In this document: piece by piece, positions 19,209-33,748 of the stretch | Layout of the letters: every line of letters begins with the position of its first letter | Numbering within the stretch: position 1 is the stretch's first letter | Assembly (NCBI GenBank): GCA_031264465.1 | Contig: JAISDX010000148.1 | Span: 1-43,103, forward strand | Source of the DNA: Deltaproteobacteria bacterium | GTDB taxonomy: Bacteria > Desulfobacterota > Desulfovibrionia > Desulfovibrionales > Desulfovibrionaceae | Length of the DNA: 43,103 nucleotides | Reading direction: 5' to 3' | Notes under the pieces: model-generated | Seen by the model: the letters and a program-made list of their open reading frames with translations, nothing else | Told to the model about the DNA's origin: nothing | Database searches by the model: none | Translations under genes and position numbers: made by a program

Positions 19209-22200
19209 TTATTTCACTTCAATCTTGCCGGGGTTGGTATTGGCCCGGGCGTCCGGGTCGTACAACGCCTCGGCAAACACGGTGGGCAGCGTGTACTTAC
19301 CCTTGTTGATGGCCTTGATGCTGTAGACGAACACGGTGTCGTAGCGGCCGAGCGAGGTATAGGCCACCATGCGGTCTTCACGCCGCTCCACGTGCACCAA
19401 GCTCATGGGCGTGCCCTTGAGGCCGGCTTCGGAGAGCATGCGGTAGACGTCCTGGCGGTGGGCCTCGTTGGGATAGGCCCGGGTCAGGCCGCTGGTCCAG
19501 TCGCTGTCGCCTTCGTCATCGCCTTCATCGTCATCATCGTAGTCTTCCCCGGCCGGGCCGGAGGCCCCGCCGCCGACAATCTGGCCGCCCTTGCTGATTA
19601 CCATTTCGAAGCCGCCCGGAATGAGCGAAGTGATGGCGATGTTATCGACGGCTTCCTGGGCGCTGGCCGTAATCAGCACGTACACTTCGTCGCCCTGGGC
19701 CAGATCTTCCAGGTCTTTGCCTCCGGCCGGGATGTAGCGGGCCGAAATGTTCAGCTTCCTGGCCTTGGCCGCCGGCGGTTCCTTGTCGAAGCCGTCGGTG
19801 GAGATCTGCCAATACAGGTCTTTGCCGCCGCTGAACATGAATTCGGCGGCCTCATTGCCGGCGGCCAGACGTTTGACGGCCTCGCCCACGGCCTCCAGGG
19901 CCAGATTCTGGTGCTGGGCGTCGCGGGCGATCAGTTCGAGACCGTCCTGCTTTTTCATGTTGCCCAGGGCAAAGCCCACCAGGCCGCGAATGGCCTGGGA
20001 GGAGCCGGGAGAGGTGTAGCTGTTGTCCACCACGTCGTTCACGCAGTTCACCAGCAGGTTGTTCACGCGGCTGGTGCCAAGCTGGGCTGGGAAGTAGCGC
20101 GAGTAGACGTTAAGCTGCATGCCGTTGTCCCACAGGCGGCTGTAGAACCAACTGCCGTAGCTCCAGGTGTATTCGTCGGCCTTTTGCGGTACCGGCCGCA
20201 CTTCGGCTATGAGCTTGTCGGCTTCGTCATTTTGCTGGAGCATCTTGTAGCAGGCCGCGATCAGCGCGCCGCAGGCGCTCTTGCGCCAGTCTTTCAGGTT
20301 CCCGTCCAGGTGCTTGACCAACTCCGGCAGACCGGTAAAACGCTGGCCGGAGCGGGTGTACACCCAGGCCGCGTAGCAGACGATGCGGGCCGACTCGCGG
20401 TCGTTGGGCAGGTTCTGCAAAATGGCGGCAACTTCGTTGCGGGTGTTGTTGAAGAGGTCGTCCGGCACTTCGAAGCCGGCCTCGCGGGCGCTCAGCAGGA
20501 AGTCGAAAGCGTAGACGGTCAGGAACGAATAGGGGTGATATTCCCTGGGCCAGAGCGTAAAGCGGCCGGGCTGCACCTGGCGCTCGCGCAGGGTCAGGAT
20601 GCCACGGTTCACGGCGTCCACGGCCTTGCGCCGAGCCTGGGCCGCGGTTTCGCCCCGGGGTATGGGGGCGAGTTCGGGCGACTCGTGCAACACGGCGTAG
20701 GGGAAGGCCTTGCTGAGAATCTGCTCTGTGCAGCCATAGGGGTAATTGACCAGGTAAGTGGAGAGCGCGTCCACCAGCGGCAGGGGCAGGCCTGAGAGGC
20801 TGGCCTCGACGTTGGCGTATTCAGCGTACATGCTGCGCCCGACCGGCACCACCTGATTGTCGGACTTCACAAAACCGGCCTTGAAGCTGGTCATGCGGGG
20901 AGAGGCCGGGCGTACCGACAAGGTGATCGGGCGCTTGACCACCACTTCGCTCCCGTCGAGGCGCCTGGCGCTGGCCACGAAGTTGACCCGGGCCTCGCCC
21001 AGCACGGCGTTGGCCTTGAGCCGGAACACGGCCTTGCCTTCGCGCCCTTCGTCAATGCTCAGGGCGGGTTCGGGCTGGCGCATGAAGCTGAGGCCCCCCG
21101 TGTCGTCCAGTTCGACCTTGACGTTGACCGTAAGGCCCTGGCCGCTGTCCTCGATGTTGTTGGCAATGGCGGCGGTCACTTCAAACTCGTCGCCCGGAGC
21201 CACGGCCACCGGCAGGTCCGGCGTGATGATCAGCGGGCCGCGCACCGTGGTTTTGCGCGAGGTTTCGCCCACGGCCTGGTCCGAGGCGGACACGGCCATG
21301 AGGCGTAGCGTGCCGTTAAAGTAGGCCGGCACTTCCCATTCCAGGTTCACGCCTTGCGGGCCCACGTCCAGCACGCCCGACCAATAGACCACCGAGGGCT
21401 CGGCCTTGCGTTTGAAGGGGTTGAGCTGCTCGGGCGCGGCCCTGGCCACCAGCATGTCGGCCGCGAAGTCGCCGCCGAAGGCCGAGCGGTTCATCAGGTA
21501 GAATTCCGGCATGATCAGGTCGAGGTTCTGCATGGTGGCGACCATGAGCGGATTCTGACGCAGGAAGTAATCCATGGGCGAAGGCGTCTTATAGCTGGTG
21601 AGCTGCAAAATGCCCTCGCTCACGGCCCAGACCACGGCCTTGCCGGGCTTTTGGGCGCTGACCTTCATGCTGAGTACGTCGCCGGGCTGGACCAGCTCGG
21701 GCGCTTCCAGCTTGAGGTACATGTTGCGCTTGGCGATATTGGCCACGAACGGCGCCACCGCGTAGGTGTGCGGCGTGCTGTGCACGGCATCGGAGTTGAT
21801 GTTGCGCACCAGGGAAACGCTGACGAAAGCCCGGCCCTCAAAGTTGGCCGGCACGGTCAGGGTTTGCACGGAGTCGCTGGTGTCGGCCCGGAACCACTTG
21901 TGGGCGTAAACCCGGTCGCTTTCAATGGTGATAAGCCCGCTGCCGGCGTAGGGCGCGCTCACGAAAATGCGCATTTCGTCGCCGGCGTTGTATTCTCTTT
22001 TATCCAGGTGCACGCGCAGGGCCGCGTCGCGCTCCAGGCCGAAGCGGCGCTGCGCCCCGCCGGCCACCACGTAGGAGAGGTTGCTGCGGGTAACGTCCTG
22101 CCCGTCTTTGAGCGTGAGCACAAACTCGCCGGTCTTGTCGGTGGGTAGGGTTATTTCCAGGCCGCGCGCCGCGTCCACACTCACCTTTTCGTCGCGCACG

Positions 22201-25200
22201 CCAATGAGCTTGCGCACGTTGTCGTAGCGGTAGCGGCCGGAGCTGTCGCGAATGAGCGAAGCCACGTAGGTCACTTCGCTGATGTTCAGGCTGAGGTCGT
22301 CCAGCCCGATGCGCTCCAGATTATTGTCAATGGCGATGAAGGAGACCTTTGCTTCGGAGTCGGAAGCCAGGAAGTCCAGCTTGGCTTCGGAAGTCCAGCC
22401 CACCAGGGCCTCCAGGGGCGAGACCAGGAGCCGGGCCGAGGCGGAAACGCTGCGTCCGCCGCCCTGTTCAAAGGCTTCGGCCTCGAAAGTCAGCCAGTAG
22501 GTGCCGCCGGAGAGGCGGTCGGCGGGGATGACGAACGTGGCTTCGCCGTTCTCGTCGGTTTCGTCGCTGCTCAGGCGGTTGGAGTAGCTCGAGCCCCAGT
22601 TGCCCGGGTCGTAGAAGGAATAGCCCTTGAATTTGTTGAAGGACAGGCGGGTGGGCGAGAGCGAGTAAGAAGCTTCCACCCGGTTGCCAACGGCGGCGGT
22701 GCCGTAAAGGTTTTCCACCTTAACCTGGCCGACCAGGTTTGCGGGTTTAACCCAGCCCTTGACCACGGCCGGAATTTCCACAAACGAGGCCCGCACTTTC
22801 AGGTTGTCCGGCTGGAATTCCTCCACCTGCACGTTGGCCGAGCCGATCAGGCTGTTGGAGAGGTAAATATCCAGATTGTAGCGCCCGGTGGGGTAGTTTT
22901 CGTCCATGGGGATATCCAGGTCATACATGCCCTGGGTATCGAGCTTGAAGGCGTTTTCGTAAACCTTGTTGCCGCGCGGGTCGAGCAGGCGGGCTTTCAG
23001 CGGGAGCCCCGCCATTTCGCCGGCGTCCCAGCTGCCGGGTTTGGCAATAAGGCCGAAGCGCAGGTTCTCGCCGGGGCGGAAGATGCCGCGCTCGCTGAAG
23101 CTGAACACGCTCACCCCGTCCTTGTTGATGGCGCGGCCGGCCGTTTCCGGGAAGTGCGACATGGAAAGGCTGCGGGTGCTGTCGTTAAGCGGCAGATAGG
23201 CGAAGTCGTTCCCCTTGGCCACGGTGATGGCCACGGGCTTTTTCTCGTCCGTAAAGCCGGAAAGCTCGGGCAGGGCCACCCGCCCGAGCGAGTTGGTGTA
23301 CATGGAGAACACCGGCAGGCCGTTGCGGCCCAGCACCTGCACCCGGGCTTCGCGCACCGGGCCGCCCTTGGCGAAGGAGCTGACGAACACGTCGCGCTCG
23401 CCGCTGGCGCCCTGCTTGGCGGTGATGCCCAGGTCGGTCACCAGCAGGAAGCGGGTGTCGGATACTTTGTGGTTGTCGTTCAGGTAGCCGGAAAGCTTGA
23501 GGTAGAAAATGCCCTTGCCGCCCTTTTCCAGAAAGGGGGTAAGGTCGACGGAGCTGTAGTCAGGCTGATAACCGTTGGAAACCGTGGTTTTGTAGATATT
23601 GCGGAATACTTCGCTCACATCTTCGAATTCCAGGTTGCCGCTTTCGTCGTAGTAGTAATAGTCGCCGGAGGAAGCGAAGTCGGTGGAAGCCAAGCCGCGC
23701 TGGGTGGCCTGGGTGACCAGCAGGTTCAGGTATTCCGGCCGCACCCGGTGGGCCGTGACCATAATCTCGTCAAGGCCGCGCGACATGATCGCCAGCTTCC
23801 GGGCGCCGCCCATGCTCAAAATGGTGCCTTCCTGCATGATGCGCAGCTCGGGGTCGATGCCGGGCACCTGGCGGATTTCGGCAAATTCGTGCAGTTTGTA
23901 GTCGGTTTCGCTGGGCACGGCGCCGCCGGGGCAGGCAATGTACATGTAGCGCCCGCCGGTGGCTCCGTAGGTGAAGGAAACGGCGCCGGTCATCTCTTCC
24001 AGCGCGGCGTCGGGCTTAAGGTCCACCGGTTGCGCGGCGGCCAGGTCTTCAGCCGTAATCTGGTCGGGCGGAATGTCGCTCCAGTCGGTGCGGCGCTTGT
24101 GCTTCGTATCCTCGCCGGGGCGGGAATAGGGCAGCAGCACGGCCTTGACGGACTTTTGCACGGCCGCCGCCTCCAGTTTGCGGGTGAAGGCGAGCATGAG
24201 CACCTGCTTTTTGTCCTGATCGTCGCTGGTGACGATGGTGTTGTCCATGTTGTCCAGGCTGACAAAGGTATCCTGCCCGACCACGTTCGTCCCCAAAGTG
24301 ACGACCTTGGGAGTTTCTCCCTTGCCGCCTGGGCGCTTCACGCCCTTTTCCACGCGCAGCTGCACGGCCGTGGTCACCGGCGGCAGACCGGTAACGCGGG
24401 CGCTGACGTAAGCGCGGGTTTTGTCGTCGTTGCAGGTGATTTCAACCTTGTCGACCTTAACTGTCGACTTGGAGCTGGTTATGGAAATGCGCTCCTCTTT
24501 CTCCTTGGCCGGCGGCAGGGTGATGGAGAGATTTTTCTCCAACTGGGCCGGATCGATGGTAAAGGGGTAGGCGCTGACGGTGGCCGAAAGCATGATGTTG
24601 CGCGGATTTTGCGGGTCCACCAGGAACTGGAAGCTGGAAAGCTCCAACGTGTAGTCGCGGGAGGTAAACTCGTAATAGGGTTTTTCGATAACCACGTTGT
24701 CGCCCAGCCTGGCTGGCGCGCTCATCCTGAACTTGGCGTCGGTGGGGAACTGTTCGAGCGTGATGGTGGTCTTGGCCGAGTAGCTGTAGGTATCGCGCCT
24801 GGTTTCCCACGGGCTGTCAAAGCTCGGGCTGCTCTTCCAGCCCTTGTCGTCCGGCTGGAGGAAATCCCAGTTGTTGCGGCACAGGACAAGGCCTTCCTTG
24901 TTGCCGTAGTATTTTTTACAGGCGGCCTCGTCGATGGAGAGCGTAAGCGTGAAGTCGGCAAAACGGCCGCCCTCCTTGGCGTAGATGGCGCCGTCGTAGC
25001 CGAGCTTGACGAACAGCTTGGGATCGAGCGGTTTAACTTCGTTCCGGTTGCCCATATTGTCGCCTTTGCTGGACGGGTCGCCGTTTTCGACGGAGTCGTC
25101 GCGCAGGAGCATGTTCGCGGGCTGGTCGTCGGTAATTTTGACGTCCTTTTCCTTGTCGCCGCTCAGGGCCAGGGCGGTGACCACCAGGCCCAGCAGAATG

Positions 25201-25481
25201 AGCAGGGCCAGGCCGGCCAGAATTTTCACGTTGCGCAGCGGGCCGGGAATGAAAGAAGGGAGTTTGCTTGAAAGCTCGTCGGCCTTGCGGTTTACGTCGG
25301 CGGTTATTGCGCCCATGCCTTCCTTGAAGGCCTTGCCGGCGTGAAATTCGCTCAGCTTCCAGTGCTTGCCGCCGCCCGGCTCGCCGGCGGCTTTCCCGCC
25401 GGTTTCCTCCTGGCTGTCCCGGCTTGAAGAAGCGCCGTTTTCGTTTTCCTGATCCGGGGTGTTGTTGTCTTCCGGGTTCAT
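19209..25481 (-). CDS. Bacterial alpha-2-macroglobulin family protein
   Basis: 2090 residues. A cytoplasmic, acidic/polar N-terminal tail (about 70 residues) precedes one membrane helix (about residues 88-110, ILAGLALLILLGLVVTALAL), so the large body is periplasmic and membrane-anchored rather than a lipoprotein. The middle has macroglobulin-like beta domains. The thioester motif is intact, with Cys1584 and Gln1587 in YGCTEQ, in a helical TED domain. Bacterial A2Ms trap proteases that enter the periplasm and are often next to a PBP1c gene; none is visible here. An acidic run EDYDDDDEGDDEGDSDW lies at residues 1979-1995, in the C-terminal receptor-binding-like domain. GGAGACGG lies upstream of the ATG. 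Family call secure. Confidence 0.9.
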   Translation of the reverse strand: MNPEDNNTPDQENENGASSSRDSQEETGGKAAGEPGGGKHWKLSEFHAGKAFKEGMGAITADVNRKADELSSKLPSFIPGPLRNVKILAGLALLILLGLVVTALALSGDKEKDVKITDDQPANMLLRDDSVENGDPSSKGDNMGNRNEVKPLDPKLFVKLGYDGAIYAKEGGRFADFTLTLSIDEAACKKYYGNKEGLVLCRNNWDFLQPDDKGWKSSPSFDSPWETRRDTYSYSAKTTITLEQFPTDAKFRMSAPARLGDNVVIEKPYYEFTSRDYTLELSSFQFLVDPQNPRNIMLSATVSAYPFTIDPAQLEKNLSITLPPAKEKEERISITSSKSTVKVDKVEITCNDDKTRAYVSARVTGLPPVTTAVQLRVEKGVKRPGGKGETPKVVTLGTNVVGQDTFVSLDNMDNTIVTSDDQDKKQVLMLAFTRKLEAAAVQKSVKAVLLPYSRPGEDTKHKRRTDWSDIPPDQITAEDLAAAQPVDLKPDAALEEMTGAVSFTYGATGGRYMYIACPGGAVPSETDYKLHEFAEIRQVPGIDPELRIMQEGTILSMGGARKLAIMSRGLDEIMVTAHRVRPEYLNLLVTQATQRGLASTDFASSGDYYYYDESGNLEFEDVSEVFRNIYKTTVSNGYQPDYSSVDLTPFLEKGGKGIFYLKLSGYLNDNHKVSDTRFLLVTDLGITAKQGASGERDVFVSSFAKGGPVREARVQVLGRNGLPVFSMYTNSLGRVALPELSGFTDEKKPVAITVAKGNDFAYLPLNDSTRSLSMSHFPETAGRAINKDGVSVFSFSERGIFRPGENLRFGLIAKPGSWDAGEMAGLPLKARLLDPRGNKVYENAFKLDTQGMYDLDIPMDENYPTGRYNLDIYLSNSLIGSANVQVEEFQPDNLKVRASFVEIPAVVKGWVKPANLVGQVKVENLYGTAAVGNRVEASYSLSPTRLSFNKFKGYSFYDPGNWGSSYSNRLSSDETDENGEATFVIPADRLSGGTYWLTFEAEAFEQGGGRSVSASARLLVSPLEALVGWTSEAKLDFLASDSEAKVSFIAIDNNLERIGLDDLSLNISEVTYVASLIRDSSGRYRYDNVRKLIGVRDEKVSVDAARGLEITLPTDKTGEFVLTLKDGQDVTRSNLSYVVAGGAQRRFGLERDAALRVHLDKREYNAGDEMRIFVSAPYAGSGLITIESDRVYAHKWFRADTSDSVQTLTVPANFEGRAFVSVSLVRNINSDAVHSTPHTYAVAPFVANIAKRNMYLKLEAPELVQPGDVLSMKVSAQKPGKAVVWAVSEGILQLTSYKTPSPMDYFLRQNPLMVATMQNLDLIMPEFYLMNRSAFGGDFAADMLVARAAPEQLNPFKRKAEPSVVYWSGVLDVGPQGVNLEWEVPAYFNGTLRLMAVSASDQAVGETSRKTTVRGPLIITPDLPVAVAPGDEFEVTAAIANNIEDSGQGLTVNVKVELDDTGGLSFMRQPEPALSIDEGREGKAVFRLKANAVLGEARVNFVASARRLDGSEVVVKRPITLSVRPASPRMTSFKAGFVKSDNQVVPVGRSMYAEYANVEASLSGLPLPLVDALSTYLVNYPYGCTEQILSKAFPYAVLHESPELAPIPRGETAAQARRKAVDAVNRGILTLRERQVQPGRFTLWPREYHPYSFLTVYAFDFLLSAREAGFEVPDDLFNNTRNEVAAILQNLPNDRESARIVCYAAWVYTRSGQRFTGLPELVKHLDGNLKDWRKSACGALIAACYKMLQQNDEADKLIAEVRPVPQKADEYTWSYGSWFYSRLWDNGMQLNVYSRYFPAQLGTSRVNNLLVNCVNDVVDNSYTSPGSSQAIRGLVGFALGNMKKQDGLELIARDAQHQNLALEAVGEAVKRLAAGNEAAEFMFSGGKDLYWQISTDGFDKEPPAAKARKLNISARYIPAGGKDLEDLAQGDEVYVLITASAQEAVDNIAITSLIPGGFEMVISKGGQIVGGGASGPAGEDYDDDDEGDDEGDSDWTSGLTRAYPNEAHRQDVYRMLSEAGLKGTPMSLVHVERREDRMVAYTSLGRYDTVFVYSIKAINKGKYTLPTVFAEALYDPDARANTNPGKIEVK

Positions 25482-29118: not shown

Positions 29119-30246
29119 TCAGTCTGAGGTATCCGAAGGGGCGCAGGGTTCGGCCCGACCCGGGCCGCAGTCCAGGGTGTGGTCCAGGAGTTCGGCCGGC
29201 AAATCCGGCAGCCTGGGGACAATGGCGTCGGCCTCTTCAGCCGGGGGCTGGTCCGGAGCGGGGGCCACGGGAGCGGGCGGCGCAGGGATTGCGGGAATGG
29301 CCGGAGCCTGATCAGCTTCTTGCGGAACCGGGGCGGCTTCGCGCGGCGGCAGGACCGGTACCGTTTCAAGCGGGATTACGGGAGTCGGGTGGACTTGGGG
29401 CTTGGCCCAGTTGGCCGGCAGGCCTTCAAACATGATTACCGGCACGGCATCGTAACCCAGGCGGCTCAAACGGGCCTGGTTGCGCATGGTGGAAAAGCGC
29501 AGCCGCAGTTCCTGCCAGAAAGACAGAACCGGGGCCTGGTAAGTGCCGGCCAGGCGCTGTTCGGCCATGTCCTCCAGAGCGGCGGCCAGCCCCTGGCCGG
29601 ATGCCAGGCGCTGTTCCAGGTCGGCAATCATGGCCAGGTCGTCTTCGTTCTCGGCCACGGCGTAAAAGCTGGCCGCCTTGTCGAACGCGCGCGCGGCGTG
29701 CAGGCAGGACGGGCAGGACGGGGAAATATAGACCGAAACCGGGCTGTTCGGGTTGGCCAGGAGCAGGCGCGGCGCCATAACCTCGTTCAGCACCGGCCCC
29801 AGGTTCAGCAGGAAAAGCAGCAGCCAGAGCCCACCCATCAACCCGGCGAAAATGCGGCGCGGCACCACCAGAGTGGTGAACTTGGAGCGCAGGGCTATCC
29901 AGGAACAGAACAGCAGCAGGGCCAGAATCAGGCAGTTGGTGCAGGGAGCCAGAAACAACATCACCAGAAGGAACAGGCAGTCGCCCAGCAGGAAGAACAG
30001 CGCCACCAGCGCGGCCAAGGTACGCAGCCGGAGCAGCGCCAACAGGGTCATCAGCCCGAACAGGGCCGTGGCCGCCCACCAGGGGGAAATGCCGAAAATA
30101 CGCACATTTTCCACTACCTGGCAGCCGCTGGTGATGCAGACGAGTTCCGTCCCGATTCCCAGGGACATGAAAATACACCAGCCCAGGCCCAATAACGAAA
30201 AAATCAACCCCGGCACCGGAATGCTCAAAGATCTGCCGAACAACAT
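29119..30246 (-). CDS. VKOR-like membrane protein with a thioredoxin-like domain
   Basis: 375 residues. The first 160 hold about five membrane helices with cysteines placed as in vitamin K epoxide reductase homologues: a loop pair Cys37/Cys42 (CITSGC) and a Cys-X2-Cys pair Cys102/Cys105 (PCTNC). Then comes a periplasmic segment with SPSCPSC (Cys178/Cys181) in VSVYISPSCPSCLHAARAF, a thioredoxin/DsbA-like active site. Such fusions recycle a quinone-linked electron relay to form disulfides in exported proteins. The tail (about residues 285-375) is Pro/Ala-rich and has two extra cysteines near its end (DCGPGRAEPC). AAGGAG precedes the ATG. VKOR assignment is from Cys placement and topology, so moderate confidence; it might be another disulfide-exchange membrane family. 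Confidence 0.6.
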   Translation of the reverse strand: MLFGRSLSIPVPGLIFSLLGLGWCIFMSLGIGTELVCITSGCQVVENVRIFGISPWWAATALFGLMTLLALLRLRTLAALVALFFLLGDCLFLLVMLFLAPCTNCLILALLLFCSWIALRSKFTTLVVPRRIFAGLMGGLWLLLFLLNLGPVLNEVMAPRLLLANPNSPVSVYISPSCPSCLHAARAFDKAASFYAVAENEDDLAMIADLEQRLASGQGLAAALEDMAEQRLAGTYQAPVLSFWQELRLRFSTMRNQARLSRLGYDAVPVIMFEGLPANWAKPQVHPTPVIPLETVPVLPPREAAPVPQEADQAPAIPAIPAPPAPVAPAPDQPPAEEADAIVPRLPDLPAELLDHTLDCGPGRAEPCAPSDTSD

Positions 30247-30422: not shown

Positions 30423-32495
30423 TTACATCCAGTGCTTTCTGGAAAGATAGCGCCAGAGGATCAGGCAGATCACCGCCGTGACGGCGCTGATAAGGATGGC
30501 GGCCCAGGGGCTTTCCTGCAGGGGCAGCCCCACGTTCATGCCGTAAAAGCCCACAATGACCATGGGCACGGTCAAAATAAGGGTGATGGCGGCCAAAAAA
30601 CGCATGGCCATGCTCATGTTGTTGGAAATGAGCGCGCCGGCGGTCTCGTTGATGGTGCTGATAATCTGGATGTATATCCCGGCCATGTCGGCGGCCTGGC
30701 GGCATTCGGTGGCCGCGTCGTCCAAAATTTCCCGTTCCGCCTTCTGCTCCGGCTTGAGGAAGCCCGCGGTGGCCTGCATTTTTTCCAGAAGCGCGTAGTT
30801 GCCCTTGAGTGAAGTGGCGAAATAGACCAGGGCTTTTTCGATCTGCATCATGGCGGCCAGGTCTTCGTTGCGCATGCTGCGGTGGACGGCCTGCTCCACT
30901 TTTTCGGTCATGGCGTAAAGTTCCTGCAGGTAGGTGATGTACAGGGCGCAGGCCCGGAACAGGATGCTCAGGGCGGCCGTCAGGCCGGAATCGGGCGCCG
31001 GGCCGTGCGTCTTGGCGTCCAGGAGCGAGCGGATCAGGTCGGCCCGGCCGCACACGGCCACGGTGGCCGTGGGGGCCAGAATCAGCCCCAGCGACACGGT
31101 GCGGTAAGGAGACTTGTCGATCAACCCGGTGCGGTAGGGCACCCGGAAGACGATCAGGGTAACGCCCTGCTCCGTGACCATGTACGGCCGCTCCGAGGGG
31201 TCCAGGCTGTCCGTGAGATGGTCCATGGGAATACCGAAACGGCTGGAAACCTGTTCCAGTTCTTCCGGAGTGGGGGCGGAAAGGCTGACCAGGCACCCGG
31301 CCTCGTGCGCCTCCACGGGAGTTACGCCGCCTTTTTTCGCGTTGCCGTTGCCGGGGCCTGACGGACCGCTCCCGCCCAGGCGCAGATATTCAAGCATGCC
31401 CCCTCCCTTGCGCATCTCCATGATGTTTTCAAAAACCAGTTCCGGCGTGATGCCGTTCATGCACCCGCCGTCGCCCGGGCAGGCGTCCCCGCCGTGCAGC
31501 GAACAGGGGCGGCAGGGCATATTCAGCTCCAACACCTTATTTTTGCCTTCCGGCGGGTAAAACCCCCACTCGCGGGTGGTGGGCCCGAACAGGGCCAGCA
31601 CCGGCAGCCCCACCCCCACCCCCAGATGCATAGGGCCGGAGTCGCCGGTCACCAGCACCGAGCCGCGCTCCAGAATGGCGCAAAGCTCGCGCAGGCTGGT
31701 GGCATTGGAAAAGTCACGCGCGTCTGGAGCAGCGCCCGGAACGTACAGGCCGGGCAAAGGTTCCCCCTGCCCCACCACCAGAAAATTCAGGCCGTGCCGC
31801 TCAAGCTTCAGAATAAGCTCGCGCCAGTACGCGGCCGGCCATTCCTTGCGCGAGTGGGTGGCATAAGGGTGCAGAATGACCAGCCCCTTTTCCCCGTTCG
31901 GAAAAATGCGCGCCAGCCGCCGGCCGGCTTCTTCGCGTTCCTGAGCGCTCAGATAAATTTTCGGCGCCAGGGCCGGGGCTGGCGGCGCGGCGCTTTCCAC
32001 GGCCAGGGCGTAGCGTTGCGGCACATTGAAGCGGCGCAGCCTTTCCGAGCAGCCCCGGCCTTTGCAACGCAAAAACAACCTGCGGCGCAAGGAAAATTTG
32101 GGGTAACGCCGCACCCGCCCCTGCCAGAGCAAGGCGAGCAGGCGCGAGCGCAAACTGGCGTGCAGATCCAGAAGTTCCTGCCCGGCAAAACGCCGGGCCA
32201 GTTCTTTGAAGGAGGAAGCGGCGTTTTTCAGGTCCGCCGCCGTCAGGCCGACAACTTCGTCCACGGCCGGGTGGTTAAGGAACAGGGGCGCGTATTGTTG
32301 CCTGGTCAGCACGGTAAAGCGCCAGCCGTGCTCCCGCGCCCAGTAATCCAGCACGCCGGTCAGCAGGGCCACATCGCCCAGGGCGCTCAGGCGGCAAACC
32401 ACTTTGCGCGTTTGGGGAATCTCCTGGCGGCTGTCCGGCAAAACCGCCGCCCTTGTAACCGCCTGACGGGTATTGTTCGAAAAGTTGTCGGGCAT
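30423..32495 (-). CDS. Fusion of GT9 heptosyltransferase-like enzyme and CorA magnesium/cobalt channel
   Basis: 690 residues in one uninterrupted frame. Residues 1-366 are a glycosyltransferase family 9 (ADP-heptose:LPS heptosyltransferase type) enzyme: RLSALGDVALLTGVL, LVTGDSGPMHLGVGVGLPVLALFGPTTREW, and the CRPCSLHGGDACPGDGGCM cysteine segment. From Met367 (at 31397) a complete 324-residue CorA begins (MLEYLRL), with SLDPSERPYMV, a long helical stalk, and the YGMNV signature at residues 651-655 in the first of two membrane helices. CorA takes up Mg2+ as a pentamer; GT9 adds sugars to LPS core. The join has no linker. The first part ends where GT9 enzymes normally end. Two adjacent genes may have lost the stop codon between them, or a sequencing error may be involved. 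Confidence 0.8.
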   Translation of the reverse strand: MPDNFSNNTRQAVTRAAVLPDSRQEIPQTRKVVCRLSALGDVALLTGVLDYWAREHGWRFTVLTRQQYAPLFLNHPAVDEVVGLTAADLKNAASSFKELARRFAGQELLDLHASLRSRLLALLWQGRVRRYPKFSLRRRLFLRCKGRGCSERLRRFNVPQRYALAVESAAPPAPALAPKIYLSAQEREEAGRRLARIFPNGEKGLVILHPYATHSRKEWPAAYWRELILKLERHGLNFLVVGQGEPLPGLYVPGAAPDARDFSNATSLRELCAILERGSVLVTGDSGPMHLGVGVGLPVLALFGPTTREWGFYPPEGKNKVLELNMPCRPCSLHGGDACPGDGGCMNGITPELVFENIMEMRKGGGMLEYLRLGGSGPSGPGNGNAKKGGVTPVEAHEAGCLVSLSAPTPEELEQVSSRFGIPMDHLTDSLDPSERPYMVTEQGVTLIVFRVPYRTGLIDKSPYRTVSLGLILAPTATVAVCGRADLIRSLLDAKTHGPAPDSGLTAALSILFRACALYITYLQELYAMTEKVEQAVHRSMRNEDLAAMMQIEKALVYFATSLKGNYALLEKMQATAGFLKPEQKAEREILDDAATECRQAADMAGIYIQIISTINETAGALISNNMSMAMRFLAAITLILTVPMVIVGFYGMNVGLPLQESPWAAILISAVTAVICLILWRYLSRKHWM
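31398..31409 (-). promoter_or_regulatory. Internal ribosome-binding site before the CorA part
   Basis: On the minus strand AAGGGAGGGGG followed by C lies immediately before the in-frame ATG at 31395-31397, which is where a normal CorA protein begins. This strong Shine-Dalgarno-like sequence within the fusion suggests that CorA is, or was, translated separately. Confidence 0.55.
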
Positions 32496-32584
32496 GATGA
32501 TTATATAGCAGGTTTCTATTTATTTTAAAGCTTCTTGCCTGTATAAAGTAGGTATTGATACAGGAGCAGATACGCCGTATTCAC

Positions 32585-33748
32585 ATGAGTTCTTCAACAA
32601 AACCAGCTTTATCCGACCCCGGGCATATGGAGCAGCCCCAGCATCTGCACCGAAGCACGCGCCTGACCCTGCTTTCCGTCGGCCTGCTGCTGGTGATGCA
32701 GGCCATAGGCCTCGGCTTTTATATTTTCACCAGGCTTGCGGAATCAAGCCTGCGCGCAAATTACGGCCTGAGCCTGTGGAGCGTGATTTCGCTCCTGGCC
32801 GGCTTCTGGCTAGTCATACGGGCTTGGCAGTCTTCCGGCAAGGAAAATGTTGGACAGCCGATCCTGCGCAAGGACGCTCTCGGCCGGGTAAGCGCAAACC
32901 TCACCCTGGCCACGCTCGGCGCGACCATGCAGGAAGGCCTGGCGCTCCTGCGCGACGGGAAAATCATCTACGCCAACAACTCCCTGAACTACCTCCTGGG
33001 CACCCAGGAGGAAGACTTGCTGGACACGGACATTTACCAGCACATCCACCCGGAAGACGCCGGCCTGCTCGACTTGCAGCCCATGCCCGCGCCCGGCCAC
33101 GGCAACCCGGGTGGCCAGGCCCTGCCCCCCGAAGGCCCGCCGGCCGCCCTGCCCCTGCCCCGGCGCTGCACCCTGCGCATGGCCACCAGCCTGGGCGATC
33201 ACCGCTGGGTGATTTGCAACGTGCACAATATCTACTGGGAAAACGCGCCGGCCACCATGATCTTCTTCGAAAATCTCGGGCCGCTGAAGCAGGCCCAGCG
33301 TTCACTCCAGGAAAGGGAGCAGGAGTCGCGCATCCTGCTGGAACGCACGCCTCTGGCCATTGCGGTCTTCGACGCGGTCGGGCAGATGAAAATAGCCAAC
33401 AGCCTGTGGTATTCGTTCTGGAGCAACGTCACCGGCCCCTCGCCGCGCGGCTTCAACATCCTTACCGAGCCGCTCCTGCCCAGGCCGGACCTGACGCGCG
33501 CCATCGAACAGGCTTTCGCCAAAATCCCGAGCGCGGTCAAGAACCTGGAGCACAGCACCCCTTGGGGTGAGACGCGCTGGTTCGATTTGGGCTTCCACCC
33601 CATGCTTTCGCCCACCAATAACATCATGGGCGTAATCATGGTGCAGCAGGACATTACCGACATGACCCGCTCCACCCGCCGTCAGCTCGAACTGGGCGCG
33701 CAACTGGCCGAAGCGCTGCGGCAGCTCCGCGAACGAAAATTAAATTAG
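32585..33748 (+). CDS. Membrane protein with two PAS domains, no output domain
   Basis: 387 residues from ATG 32585; an in-frame TTG at 32555 is an alternative start. Two membrane helices (about residues 28-49 and 61-79) precede a short cytoplasmic linker. PAS domain 1 spans about residues 100-240 (TMQEGLALLRDGKIIYANNSLNYLLG, HPEDAGLLDL) and contains a Pro/Gly-rich insert. PAS domain 2 spans about 245-365 (LLERTPLAIAVFDAVGQMKIANSLWYSFW, PTNNIMGVIMVQQDITDMTRS). The C-terminus ends in a coiled helix STRRQLELGAQLAEALRQLRE, typical of the linker into a histidine kinase, yet the frame stops there. No kinase, GGDEF or HTH is visible. Role as a signal receptor is inferred. Confidence 0.75.
   Translation: MSSSTKPALSDPGHMEQPQHLHRSTRLTLLSVGLLLVMQAIGLGFYIFTRLAESSLRANYGLSLWSVISLLAGFWLVIRAWQSSGKENVGQPILRKDALGRVSANLTLATLGATMQEGLALLRDGKIIYANNSLNYLLGTQEEDLLDTDIYQHIHPEDAGLLDLQPMPAPGHGNPGGQALPPEGPPAALPLPRRCTLRMATSLGDHRWVICNVHNIYWENAPATMIFFENLGPLKQAQRSLQEREQESRILLERTPLAIAVFDAVGQMKIANSLWYSFWSNVTGPSPRGFNILTEPLLPRPDLTRAIEQAFAKIPSAVKNLEHSTPWGETRWFDLGFHPMLSPTNNIMGVIMVQQDITDMTRSTRRQLELGAQLAEALRQLRERKLN

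Follow-up and report, generated by a model that had tools for sequence, protein, structure and literature searches.

A single open reading frame joining a GT9 glycosyltransferase to CorA, probably with a separate internal CorA start, in a draft genome of the Desulfovibrionaceae

The locus and its domains

We analysed a window of 43,103 nucleotides, positions 1 to 43,103 of contig JAISDX010000148.1, from a draft genome of 176 contigs. On its minus strand a stop-free frame of 690 codons (30423-32495) carries a GT9 glycosyltransferase followed by CorA, thus the sequence runs through both coding frames as one open frame, as is expected of a gene fusion. The features of the locus, all on the minus strand, are as follows.

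31398..32495, minus: GT9 glycosyltransferase part, residues 1-366 counted from ATG 32495 (Pfam PF01075; Foldseek 3tov/1psw/2h1h)
30423..31397, minus: CorA part with its own start Met367 (Pfam PF01544; Foldseek 4ev6/2iub; start aligned with that of CorA in the relative G006)
31399..31409, minus: Shine-Dalgarno-like AAGGGAGGGGG before the internal CorA start (anti-SD duplex -11.8 kcal/mol)
31296..31403, minus: linker, residues 365-400, with a Gly/Pro/Asn-rich insert (pLDDT <50; insert missing from 8 free CorAs)
31390..31392, minus: TGA in the -1 frame inside ATGCTTGA, the GT9 stop if the G-run were one base longer (three-frame translation)
32439..32441, minus: TTG, likely the true GT9 start (SD energy -6.8 vs +1.8 for ATG 32495)
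32500..32529, minus: promoter-like site TTTAAA/TATAAT directly before ATG 32495 (consensus scan 10/12)
Peptide spanning the GT9-CorA join: ...EMRKGGGMLEYLR...

The GT9 domain (PF01075) covers residues 108-331 (E 2.8e-19, 69.9 bits vs the Pfam gathering cut-off of 22) and, together with the GT-B fold and the Foldseek matches 3tov and 1psw, places this part in the GT9 family. Its activity is assigned at family level only, and to no particular sugar, since the matches to the heptosyltransferase I-III equivalogs stayed below their cut-offs (TIGR02193 47.2 vs 185.3, TIGR02195 63.4 vs 134.6 and TIGR02201 23.7 vs 170.2 bits). The CorA domain (PF01544) is complete and above its gathering cut-off (residues 402-686, E 8.2e-37, 127.5 bits vs 27, profile positions 6-292 of 292), and the family's GMN motif lies at residues 652-654 (YGMN 651-654), before the last membrane helix. 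The CorA part is likewise assigned at family level, and to no particular ion, because the CorA equivalog TIGR00383 scored 68.8 bits vs a cut-off of 200.75. This is the sole PF01544 protein of the host genome, which has one MgtE besides. Structure prediction (mean pLDDT 75.5) recovered both folds, with a predicted GT-B domain up to about residue 363, disorder at 365-400 and the CorA domain from about 402; Foldseek searches against the PDB (4ev6/2iub for CorA, 3tov/1psw for GT9) agreed with the sequence searches. The initial annotation of one frame joining GT9 to a full-length CorA with the GMN signature was thus borne out.

The start of the GT9 part appears to lie further inside than the longest frame implies. 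ATG 32495 is without an SD and stands beside a -10-like TATAAT that ends at 32500, therefore transcription from that putative promoter would start at or after this codon; the consensus scan of the region found 2 promoter-like sites vs 0.6 expected. Judged by the SD energies, the in-frame TTG 32441 is the more likely start and the protein therefore more likely 672 aa long. Residues 1-27, counted from ATG 32495, are predicted to be disordered.

Downstream on the same strand lies a 375-aa protein (29119-30246) whose N-terminal half is hydrophobic and which carries a CPSC motif ahead of a Pro-rich tail; no match to it was found in Pfam or NCBIfam. Further along, 19209-25481 (minus strand) encodes a 2090-aa bacterial alpha-2-macroglobulin with MG2, bMG3, bMG5, A2M_BRD, A2M and bMG10 domains; the long opposite-strand ORFs over it are probably not genes.

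The join and the internal CorA start

At the join the GT9 part reaches ...MR, where free GT9s end, and is followed by KGGG and then Met367 (31397-31395), which in the alignment coincides with the initiator Met of the free G006 CorA (MLEYLRL / MLEYFSL). A normal GT9 end and a normal CorA Met, as first annotated, were therefore confirmed, whereas the claim that no linker is present does not hold: residues 365-400 are disordered by prediction, and the Gly/Pro/Asn-rich stretch after MLEYLRL is absent in all 8 aligned free CorAs.

The duplex energy of the AAGGGAGGGGGC-ATG site ranked first among 225 internal ATGs in 17 window genes and second among 770 internal ATGs in 104 ORFs, taken from 13 sampled stretches of the host genome; it exceeded that of the best candidate start of each of the 104 ORFs (median -6.25). 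Because this site is so strong, CorA is probably also made alone from Met367, as the initial annotation had considered. Just one internal ATG had a stronger SD (AAGGAGGCCCCGC-ATG), in L099 4480-5190 (minus strand) of the same genome; that ORF is probably over-extended, with this ATG as its true start.

The run at the join consists of five G, and a serious rival reading starts from it: the locus may be an ordinary two-gene operon from which one G is missing, by assembly error or strain-level indel, with GT9 ending at the TGA in ATGCTTGA, an 8-nt overlap with the CorA start and CorA translated through coupling and its own SD. One extra G would indeed end the GT9 frame with ...GHA-stop at the CorA start, leaving two ordinary overlapping genes; co-directional gene pairs are commonly arranged with a short overlap (PMC10666635), a change of frame from one gene to its neighbour is known to be confused with frameshifts and fusions (PMC3711429), the strong SD suits a normal gene start and the host assembly is a draft. 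Against this, five G are few for a homopolymer error, and the other Pfam-supported genes of the window, including those of 1781, 1065 and 2090 residues, are intact. Moreover, the TGA belongs to CorA's own start codons and is present yet unused in G006, therefore its position is no evidence of error. We regard a missing G as possible, though on the unlikely side. Programmed -1 frameshifting at AGGGGGC is another reading that we considered and put aside, given the shortness of the run, an SD that overlaps it rather than lying upstream and the lack of supporting conservation.

The locus in related genomes

In four members of the genus (G001, G003, G004 and G006) the GT9 gene is accompanied by a divergent PAS-domain gene, therefore the locus is orthologous. 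In the window this PAS-domain protein is encoded at 32555-33748 (plus strand), divergent from GT9; it has 397 aa here, 408 aa in G006 and 505-721 aa in G003, G001 and G004, the longer versions having an extra C-terminal part. No CorA gene was found next to GT9 in G001, G003 or G004 (G003 has a CorA on another contig); the contig of G005 breaks off at this point, and no close match to GT9 was found in G002.

The sole relative found with GT9 followed by CorA is G006 (JAITWK010000037.1, the MAG Deltaproteobacteria bacterium TD116_bin81), where the two genes are separate: GT9, 346 aa long, has a TAG stop, and 193 bp later CorA starts at an ATG with its own SD-like AGAGGAG. BLASTP identity to the fused frame is 57% for GT9 and 43% for CorA. 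Since G006 keeps the genes apart, the fused state is derived, in line with the proposal that an old two-gene arrangement became a single frame. The initial annotation had held that a stop codon between the parts in a close relative would speak against the fusion; G006 does have that stop, but at about 50% protein identity it shows only that fusion is the derived state.

No other in-frame GT9-CorA was found in the genus, family, class (348 genomes) or phylum (395 genomes) samples, the last two overlapping in part, and the fused state is known from one draft genome. With the CorA part as query (E <= 1e-25), 48 genomes of the class sample and 56 of the phylum sample gave matches, among which only the window's own frame (698) and that of G088 (792) exceeded 600. 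The G088 frame was rejected as a fusion for want of a second Pfam domain, as were the long GT9 frames that the family's G048, G049, G112 and G093 contain, each with GT9 as its sole Pfam domain; those of G048, G049 and G093 are each overlapped by a further GT9-like ORF in a different frame. Given the single Pfam domain of each and these overlapping ORFs, the five long frames are extensions without a stop rather than fusions. Furthermore, the whole fused protein had no matches among genome contigs and viral contigs, a scan with a CorA alignment returned only the G006 record and distant CorAs, and a literature search for GT9-CorA fusions retrieved unrelated matter only. The architecture, of which the initial annotation knew no described example, was thus found nowhere else in the sampled genomes, which also fits a missing G.

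Interpretation

We favour, at a probability of roughly 55% and as read from the sequence, the view that the in-frame join is real and has two products: the fusion, initiated upstream, and free CorA, initiated at Met367. The join is supported by the single open frame with both full domains, the predicted disordered Gly/Pro-rich linker and the separate pair of G006, in the same order and beside the same divergent PAS gene; occurrence in one draft genome only, and the two ordinary genes that one more G would give, count against it. Met367, matched to the CorA start of G006 and preceded by its strong SD, also speaks for the favoured reading, as does the absence of a further PF01544 protein from the host genome. 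GT9 and corA, once separate and co-directional, would have been joined in this lineage through loss of the GT9 stop and the intergenic stretch, with agreeing frames. Ribosomes loading at the GT9 start would meet no stop before CorA and produce a GT9-linker-CorA protein of about 672-690 residues, a cytoplasmic transferase hung by a flexible linker on the cytoplasmic N-terminus of CorA, and those loading at the strong internal SD would produce CorA alone, 324 residues long. The output of CorA would thereby be kept, and this GT9 made only in tethered form; four GT9 loci exist elsewhere in the host genome, so loss of the free enzyme might be tolerated. We infer the synthesis of both products, mixed CorA pentamers and a working GT9.

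GT9 enzymes lie in the cytoplasm, as does the N-terminus of CorA, and the fusion is therefore topologically permitted. This topology, the flexible insert at the join and two domains that look intact would also suit a selected bifunctional protein, in which GT9 is tethered to a Mg2+ channel so as to be placed at the inner membrane or coupled to Mg2+. The fusion is, however, conserved in no other sampled genome, the internal CorA start is still very strong, the separate activities are assigned at family level only, with the CorA and heptosyltransferase I-III equivalogs below cut-off, and the host has its other GT9 loci. Nothing in the analysis requires selection for such a protein, which we consider improbable. 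It is also rather unlikely that this is a retained dual-output gene, supplying free CorA by internal initiation together with CorA-tethered GT9, in inner-membrane pentamers that would bear varying numbers of glycosyltransferase domains. Under the favoured two-output reading the join is probably tolerated, not selected, and may be a recent accident.

If real, the locus holds a domain pairing absent from the other genomes sampled, and two neighbour genes have been caught becoming one frame with the downstream start kept. If an error, it illustrates how, in a draft genome, a single base of a G-run can be enough to give the appearance of a composite protein.

Comparison with known systems

The fused GT9 part resembles members of its family (WaaF/RfaF 1psw, WaaC 2h1h and the Veillonella GT9 3tov) in domain, length and C-terminal end and shares the conserved stretches TGDSGPMHL and ALFGPT, but it lacks a stop at the usual end and continues into CorA. 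Similarly, the CorA part is like the CorA Mg2+ channels (4ev6, 2iub) in having a full-length domain with the long helix, a pair of C-terminal membrane helices and YGMN, and differs by the GT9 in frame before it and the Gly/Pro-rich insert after MLEYLRL. The G006 pair has the same order, strand and divergent PAS gene as the fused locus, from which it is distinguished by the TAG stop and the 193 bp between the genes. In translationally coupled overlapping gene pairs (PMC10666635) the downstream start and its SD lie inside the upstream coding end, as at Met367, whereas in the fused locus the upstream frame meets no stop there and passes into the downstream frame.
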